A DNA stretch of 46,844 nt from Ramlibacter sp. Its GTDB lineage: Bacteria > Pseudomonadota > Gammaproteobacteria > Burkholderiales > Burkholderiaceae_C. This document shows positions 46,546 to 46,778 of this stretch, piece after piece (positions within the stretch are counted from its first letter, which is position 1; every line of letters starts with the position of its first letter). The stretch covers positions 1-46,844 of the forward strand of contig NZ_JACCWG010000084.1 in assembly GCF_013697775.1 (NCBI RefSeq), read 5' to 3'. The notes under the pieces are model-generated. The model ran no database searches. It was not told the DNA's origin and saw nothing but the letters and a program-made list of their open reading frames with translations. Position numbers and translations under genes: made by a program.

Positions 46546-46778
46546 GTCGCGGCAGGCGGTGCCCTGCCGCGACAACCACCCTGTCAGCACTCCAGCGGTG
46601 GCGCGCTGCCATCGTCATTGCAAAGCCGCACGCGGGCGGGCCGTGGCGCGCAGTTGGACAGGGCGCCTGAGGTGATTGGCCGGGTGGCAGGCGCGCGCAG
46701 CGCGCTTCGTTGACTGACTCACGGCGGCTGTCTGAACGCAGCGTTTGCTTTGCAAACGCGAAGTGAGTTCCGCCGGGA
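46546..46778 (+). repeat. Dispersed palindromic repeat, copy C
   Basis: A further copy of the element at 9.0-9.5 kb, in plus orientation. It starts with GTCGCGGCAGG/CCTGCCGCGAC, a perfect 11-base hairpin (46546-46573). It continues through 46 bases to GCAAAGCCGCACGCGGGC, AGGGCGCCTGAGG, GGCAGGCGCGCGCAGCGCGC and GGCTGTCTGAACG, and closes with GCGTTTGC/GCAAACGC (46741-46759) and AGTGAGTTCCGCCG. It occupies most of the gene-free stretch 46443-46844. Confidence 0.85.

Follow-up and report, generated by a model that had tools for sequence, protein, structure and literature searches.

Doublet and damaged copy in the window

The window, that is the whole analysed stretch of 46,844 nucleotides from Ramlibacter sp., carries an intact repeat element of 537 bp at positions 9030 to 9566, between genes for a Meth_synt_2 protein and a cupin, and a damaged copy (copy C) at its far end. 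The limits of the intact element were set by homology and by its absence in relatives within the genus. What had been described as copies A and B are the two halves of this one doublet: half alpha (copy A) lies on the minus strand at 9030 to 9284 (fold z -12.1 against 100 dinucleotide shuffles; core match of model R1 at 9107 to 9240, minus strand, 133.5 bits) and half beta (copy B) on the plus strand at 9330 to 9566 (fold z -16.9; R1 core at 9370 to 9500, plus strand, 128.3 bits), with a spacer at 9285 to 9329 that has the motif GGTGGCGYGC, by eye also present in copy C. The terminal hairpin P4 reads GCGCTC-GCA-GAGCGC in both halves, at 9148 to 9162 on the minus strand and at 9445 to 9459 on the plus strand. 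Next to it stand the two strands of a conserved internal loop, placed in copy A from the loop consensus and the sequence (CTGTCTGA-N-CGGA at 9163 to 9175 and G-N'-GAGTT at 9138 to 9144, both minus, with N-N' here C-G) and in copy B, like both hairpins, by a base-by-base check (9432 to 9444 and 9463 to 9469, both plus).

Copy C represents one such half in damaged form, from a doublet of about 540 bp. The preliminary description had noted its collinearity with copy A, including an equal spacing of 46 bases, and this holds base by base in both copies: CTGCCGCGAC (46564 to 46573) and GCAAAGCC (46620 to 46627) are 46 bases apart, as are 9331 to 9340 and 9277 to 9284 on the minus strand of copy A. 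These 46 bases are the spacer that separates the two halves of a doublet. Sequence and fold leave the closing hairpin alone of half beta (46546 to 46573), followed by the spacer (46574 to 46619) and by half alpha on the plus strand (46620 to 46776), complete only to P3', in which R1 matches 46691 to 46777 (model positions 28 to 114 of 137, 79.2 bits). Within this half the loop strand (46728 to 46740), the P4 hairpin (46741 to 46759) and the G-N'-GAGTT strand (46763 to 46769) were each checked base by base on the plus strand; the hairpin, GCGTTTGC-TTT-GCAAACGC, is indeed spelled differently from that of copies A and B with its pairing kept. As a whole, 46546 to 46778 folds no better than shuffles (z -1.1, same test). 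From 46777 to 46844 a different repeat (GAATAAAAATTGGGGTCAGAGTCC..., plus strand) interrupts the copy, and the contig ends inside it. Another contig of the same genome, C444, begins with 127 bases identical to window positions 46718 to 46844 and then runs on through this second repeat into the 3' arm of alpha, which makes copy C probably a complete half that carries an insert. The P1 arms of copy C come from different subfamilies, however, so that it may instead have arisen by recombination or by a false join. The same non-pairing of P1 arms from different subfamilies is seen twice in this genome, in L002 at 1601 to 1738 and where window positions 46620 to 46776 are taken with L012 128 to 272, and would reflect either an exchange of arms among copies or a join made in assembly.

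A blastn search with copy C against its own genome (4.88 Mb, 480 contigs) returned 48 pieces on 21 contigs, and the repeat is thus not a matter of chance. Alignment of these copies gave a doublet of about 540 bp as the unit, with halves of 237 to 255 bp, in which homology begins at GACC.CGCGGCAAAG and mostly stops at ..GCCTG.CGCGACG; the doublet ends mostly share CGCGGCA. A strict loop motif occurs 21 times in this genome, against none for a reversed-pattern control. The suggestion that translation of these repeats produces spurious proteins is borne out in that spurious-looking ORFs are present, HGPPACGFA being encoded in a minus-strand ORF of copy C and readable by eye in copy A too. As to their misannotation as genes, which the same description had thought likely, the one annotated record that was inspected has no gene over the element.

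Predicted fold, internal loop and covariation

The fold predicted for each half is a long hairpin made up of a closing stem P0, the stem P1, a P2 side hairpin (junction ..CGTnnnCTGACT), the stem P3, the internal loop and a free terminal hairpin P4; a second side hairpin, P5, lies 3' of these, flanked by P1' and P0'. The internal loop is predicted to be of the tandem-GA type, with YTGTYTGA-N-C-GNA opposite GNA-G-N'-GAGTT and N pairing with N' (consensus Y-TGTYTGA-N-C-GNA-[P4]-GNA-G-N'-GAGTT, the conserved letters of which are partly imposed by the anchors). TGA-N-C opposite G-N'-GA is the letter signature of a kink-turn, here followed by a GNA/GNA loop. With that RNA motif the loop has in common tandem G.A pairs by a bulge and then a Watson-Crick pair, but the element's stem beside the bulge is without canonical pairing, and the likeness is one of letters. 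Similar GA motifs are stable in DNA as well. By eye, a second conserved-looking loop (GAGCA.CG.AG opposite GAG.AGCGCAGGG) is found at the base of P1 in L311, L314, L319 and L324, which come from other orders of the class; a loose pattern for it matched 155 of 213 cores, and as this pattern was run without a control no claim is drawn from it.

The stems differ widely in sequence among copies and keep their pairing. For the own genome, 21 cores were caught by a regular expression and 17 entered the alignment (A1), four being truncated or interrupted; L009 (two), L017, L020 and L021 (two) hold further cores that the expression did not catch. Among the 17, 96.4% of cells were paired against 77.2% in shuffles, none of 500 shuffles reaching the observed value, double changes were present in 36 of 47 pairs, and summed over the pair table 148 cells had changed on both sides and 14 on one. 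A wider alignment (A2, model R2), which includes a few antisense echoes and comprises 131 matches (130 distinct) in 80 named loci, gave 90.9% against 60.7%; a pattern scan had yielded at least 119 stretches, 80 of which were used (L063 to L142). Since this alignment was fitted to the model, the covariation test was repeated without fitting. For this, loose loop motifs were required of 281 CM rows; 237 had them, the others being mostly antisense echoes or truncated, and 224 of these were unique, which left 211 for a test from the loop anchors, 205 rows (198 unique) for mutual information, and 208 for the count of G.U pairs described below. Read from the loop anchors alone, P3 was 91.8% paired over 111 unique arm combinations, as against 61.0% (maximum 64.6%) when arms were dealt among elements, and P4 83.9% over 51 unique combinations against 56.7% (maximum 63.5%). 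N and N' pair in 206 of 211 cores (shuffle mean 130, maximum 143). In a structure-blind ranking by mutual information over the 198 unique cores N-N' comes first, its letters being GC 92, AT 85, CG 16, AA 4 and GT 1, and the eight P3 pairs all fall within the best 14; a pseudoknot between CTGACT and GAGTT, complementary by eye, is absent from the part of the ranking shown. The covariation check that the preliminary description had proposed thus finds pairing well above shuffles, and selection on the pairing, which it had suspected from one hairpin, is supported in the own-genome and the wider core sets, including the tests that used no structure-fitted alignment.

Paired changes might also arise without selection, if template-switch correction of quasi-palindromes, or extrusion as cruciform DNA, kept the arms matched. 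The excess of both-side over one-side changes is in keeping with such a process, as is the exchange of whole blocks: AT-rich P2 or P4 hairpins have been swapped in L016 and L019, and arms have been exchanged between copies in L002 and copy C. Correction of arms and cruciforms leave unexplained, on the other hand, the conserved letters of the loop and the N-N' pair within it, and they make a prediction about mismatches that is taken up next.

Strand on which the fold seems to be kept

As covariation alone could stem from palindrome correction, non-Watson-Crick pairs were counted under a scoring in which all mismatches weigh the same, the sense strand being defined as the one reading TGTYTGA. 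On this strand 208 elements, all still distinct after trimming 15 bases per end, had 84 G.U against 14 A.C pairs in P1 and 25 against 7 in P3 (34:14 with strict anchors, 24:10 in unique combinations), with P0 at 179:75 in 133 elements and P4 at 4:2. For P1 the excess is present in the own genome (20:1), the same genus (18:0) and the pattern-scan loci (26:4) and is weaker in the family CM loci (20:9, p 0.06); P3 in the pattern-scan loci gave 7:6. Counted by locus with the own genome excluded, 48 had more G.U, 11 had more A.C and 63 were tied. The p-values are optimistic, since copies share ancestry and CM-found loci may slightly favour G.U.

Given that stem mismatches are far more often G.U than A.C, selection seems to see a folded single sense strand. 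Arm correction and cruciform extrusion would treat both strands alike and predict equal numbers of the two mismatches, which is at odds with the P1 counts, and we regard a passive origin of the paired changes as very improbable. The earlier wording, a structure in DNA or RNA, stands as to the structure and is narrowed by the G.U excess, which points to one folded single strand, be it RNA or single-stranded DNA. The orientation of neighbouring genes could be set for 140 of the 208 elements by simple ORF calling. Halves that a tandem neighbour reads in sense had 19:3 (36 elements) and those read in antisense 26:7 (38 elements), with 34:2 at convergent sites (54 elements) and 4:1 at divergent ones (12 elements). 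That the excess appears in antisense-read as in sense-read halves argues for selection on the element itself; such selection seems to act on the folded single sense strand whichever way the neighbouring genes read.

Doublets, empty sites and genomic placement

Among 73 distinct pairs of neighbouring cores less than 1.5 kb apart, 68 were divergent (-+), five tandem (++) and none convergent (+-); before places fetched twice were dropped the counts were 72, 5 and 0. The two members of 62 of the 68 divergent pairs lie 85 to 260 bases apart, 25 of them at 120 to 135, and at least four divergent pairs are found in G751, a genome outside the order. Solo units make up 84 of 151 and paired ones 67, the solo state being due in part to short loci or weak partners. 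In the doublets that were folded, alpha and beta have different P1 arms, which pair within their own half. Same-strand cores at a 476-base period in L189/L213 (G246) are apparently a tandem array of the element.

The genes that flank 9030 to 9566 adjoin each other without the element in other genomes of the genus. The gap between the matched stretches is 9 bases in G012 and 47 to 116 bases in G024, G014, G015 and G031; both flanking pieces were seen again within one locus for G012, G015 and G024, and the junction was read in G012 and G015. In G223 there are six further near-full-length copies, 80 to 91% identical to one doublet. The presence and absence of doublets between species suggests that they have moved. 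A MITE of a DDE transposon would have terminal inverted repeats and a target-site duplication; here the ends mostly share CGCGGCA, and no duplication was seen by eye at the own-genome doublets. Plasmids gave no match to the window doublet, and a search with L110 matched two plasmid records that have no annotated feature at the match; a search of phages gave none.

Placement was judged by home-made ORF calling. Of 151 distinct units, 89 could be assigned to tandem (47), convergent (36) or divergent (6) intergenic spaces, the other spaces in the same loci numbering 105, 43 and 59 (Fisher p 1.3e-5 for the deficit in divergent spaces); 37 units were at locus edges, 15 inside called ORFs and 10 far from genes. 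This avoidance of divergent spaces would suit a structured non-coding RNA or a 3'-UTR element that is entered by transcripts from neighbouring genes and whose RNA fold has a protective or terminating role or recruits a protein, and so would the tolerance of G.U on one strand and the tandem-GA loop with its likeness in letters to the kink-turn. The G.U excess is as clear in antisense-read as in sense-read halves, however, a single transcript cannot contain both divergent halves in sense, and a consensus scan of 9000 to 9680 found no sigma-70-like promoter and no T-tract terminator. Rfam 15 gave no match at the gathering score for the window, and two chance-level matches in four loci at E<=1. 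On these grounds a function as non-coding RNA or 3'-UTR seems unlikely.

A search for a gene that might move the doublets was made among the neighbours: home-made ORF calling, in place of a family search, gave 480 proteins from 126 loci, and when these were clustered no recurrent mobile-type gene was seen by eye among the 25 largest clusters. An autonomous version with a transposase between its halves was rejected, as the cargo differs among the six far-spaced pairs that were read. A Pfam scan of four of these gave IS110 (L302), an IS4/5-type protein (L108), an HTH protein (L299) and no match (L212), L300 and L301 being read outside that scan. The IS110-type and IS4/5-type transposase genes in L302 and L108 have a divergent half on either side, as they would if insertion sequences landed in the spacer. 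At L299 622 to 1277 (G501) the small HTH protein (a sub-cut-off antitoxin match) and a 114-aa partner with no Pfam match lie cargo-like between divergent halves.

Relation to REP, REPIN and other palindromic repeats

The arrangement recalls REPINs, which the available text of PMC3116915 describes as extragenic inverted REP doublets that act as the replicative unit and in which compensatory changes are common, REP singlets being likely remnants in the Pseudomonas system; RAYTs have been proposed to move them (PMC3116915; PMC8266576, as available). The element has in common with REPINs the extragenic, multi-copy inverted doublet, which is the unit here too though 84 of the 151 units look solo, as well as the compensatory changes and the singlets (PMC3116915). 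It differs in its size of about 540 bp, in that each half has its own branched structure and conserved internal loop, whereas two REPs pair in one hairpin, and in having neither a 5' GTAG tag nor a RAYT found linked to it. GTAG and CGTC REPs are, in the text available, palindromic, intergenic and often dimers, each a single hairpin of 20 to 40 bp with a terminal tetranucleotide, and CGTC REPs are without a dedicated transposase (PMC3733652). The element agrees with them in the former traits, and with CGTC REPs in that no dedicated transposase was found for it, but not in the size of its halves or, by reading, in a terminal GTAG or CGTC at the foot of the stem. The CGTC list includes C. taiwanensis, probably Cupriavidus of the Burkholderiales; six other names sought, all of Burkholderiales genera, are absent from the accessible text (PMC3733652). 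No GTAG stands 5' of P4, where GNA is found, and it would be possible only 3' of P4, where 18 of 198 cores have T at the required place. By reading, half beta carries CGTC at its outer end in the own genome, where G223 has TTCGCGG and L083 has CTCGCGG.

The preliminary description had pointed to a REP-associated (RAYT, Y1) transposase, and this link fared poorly. The element might be an oversized REP or REPIN moved by a RAYT (Y1 HuH) enzyme, given that it consists of extragenic inverted doublets with compensatory changes as in REPINs, that its own genome has one detected Y1_Tnp gene and that 54 of 81 element-bearing genomes of the family have some Y1_Tnp. That own-genome gene is flanked, by eye, by a different repeat (GGGGTCAGA...). 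Taking the element sample and the Y1 sample as the same 200 genomes, Y1_Tnp was detected in 93 of 119 element-free genomes and went undetected in 27 of the 81 with the element, a difference that runs in the wrong direction (Fisher p 0.075). The halves fold separately, and the tetranucleotides are as described above. Neither the presence/absence test nor the flanks of the own Y1 gene support RAYT mobilisation, which was accordingly set aside; a REP/RAYT system for this repeat is not supported, and we give it little credence, no more than the passive origin of the paired changes.

A second repeat (AATAAAAATTGGGGTCAGAGTCC...) stands in or beside P4 of some copies (window 46777 to 46844; L012 61 to 164; L005; L032 1840 to 1870 and 2615 to 2645). 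A repeat similar to it flanks the only detected Y1_Tnp gene of the own genome, and it may be the RAYT-linked repeat there.

ERIC, Correia/NEMIS and other MITE-like palindromes are likewise non-coding, intergenic and palindromic and have no gene of their own. To our knowledge none of them combines a double, divergent structure with a tandem-GA loop that is conserved, and these traits would set the element apart, as would the lack of a target duplication, none being seen by eye. The literature searched, with subscription papers and preprints outside its scope, contained no description of it; in the accessible text of PMC2755013 'palindromic repeats' means CRISPR only.

Distribution

In the window's family, which to judge from the named loci is Burkholderiaceae in the GTDB sense, model R1 matched 81 of the 200 genomes, one of them at E 0.008 only, and 58 of 141 genera; up to 16 matches were listed per genome. 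Model R2 found it in 20 of 300 genomes of the order (six in the window's family), strongly in families f10 and f20 and weakly elsewhere. In the class sample it matched 4 of 274 genomes, including two from outside the order that matched weakly. The strict loop motif occurs in 6 of the 274 class genomes (21 times in the window's own genome, G000, 12 in G751, 7 in G187, 5 in G640, 4 in G601 and once in G756), and the reversed-pattern control gave single matches in two other genomes. Those copies outside the order that were folded are without P2 and the CTGACT junction; they retain a long stem, the same loop and the N-N' pairing. Of 150 genomes sampled across the phylum 3 had a match, the sole one outside the class through a single unpaired (T-T) match that is likely due to chance. 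Among the matches listed, named hosts include Xenophilus, Ramlibacter, Roseateles, Rubrivivax, Variovorax, Acidovorax, Hydrogenophaga and Comamonas. One R1 core match was found in L072, a Steroidobacteraceae MAG contig, and none in contigs whose titles lie outside the order, Zixiibacteriota (L115) and Nitrospira (L137).

Possible mode of movement

On balance we favour, with moderate confidence, a REPIN-like, non-autonomous mobile doublet that is moved in trans by a factor reading the folded sense strand. A trans-acting protein, or RNP, would recognise that strand at both halves and would move the doublet, in the manner proposed for RAYTs and REPINs, presumably through an intermediate at the level of the single strand. 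The stems would need pairing alone and could therefore drift in sequence, and the letters of the loop would be contacted by the factor and so stay fixed; copies would settle mostly outside divergent (promoter) spaces. Speaking for this reading are the many copies, the predicted fold with its covariation, the G.U tolerance of one strand, the divergent pairs and the empty sites in the genus. Against this reading of a doublet moved in trans weighs that no mobilising gene was found among the 25 largest neighbour clusters or in the cargo of far-spaced pairs; so do the lack of a target duplication visible by eye, the greater number of solo than of paired units and the uneven G.U excess among subsets. 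A bolder version would make the element an ancient class of gene-less mobile elements of the Gammaproteobacteria (in the GTDB sense) that moves through a folded RNA or a single DNA strand by way of a kink-turn-like recognition loop and an enzyme unrelated to RAYTs; this we think doubtful.

Because the structure is kept while most stem bases have changed, and because wobble pairs are tolerated on one strand in particular, the element offers a clean test case on two questions: by what means repeats without a gene are recognised and moved, and how selection at the level of RNA or single-stranded DNA can be told from passive correction of palindromes. It is of practical concern as well, as a family present in 81 of the 200 sampled genomes yields false ORFs, has no Rfam match and breaks assemblies. 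In the own genome the contigs C366, C444 and C311 (at its start) begin inside the element and C264 ends in the interrupting repeat, which indicates that the element has broken this assembly.
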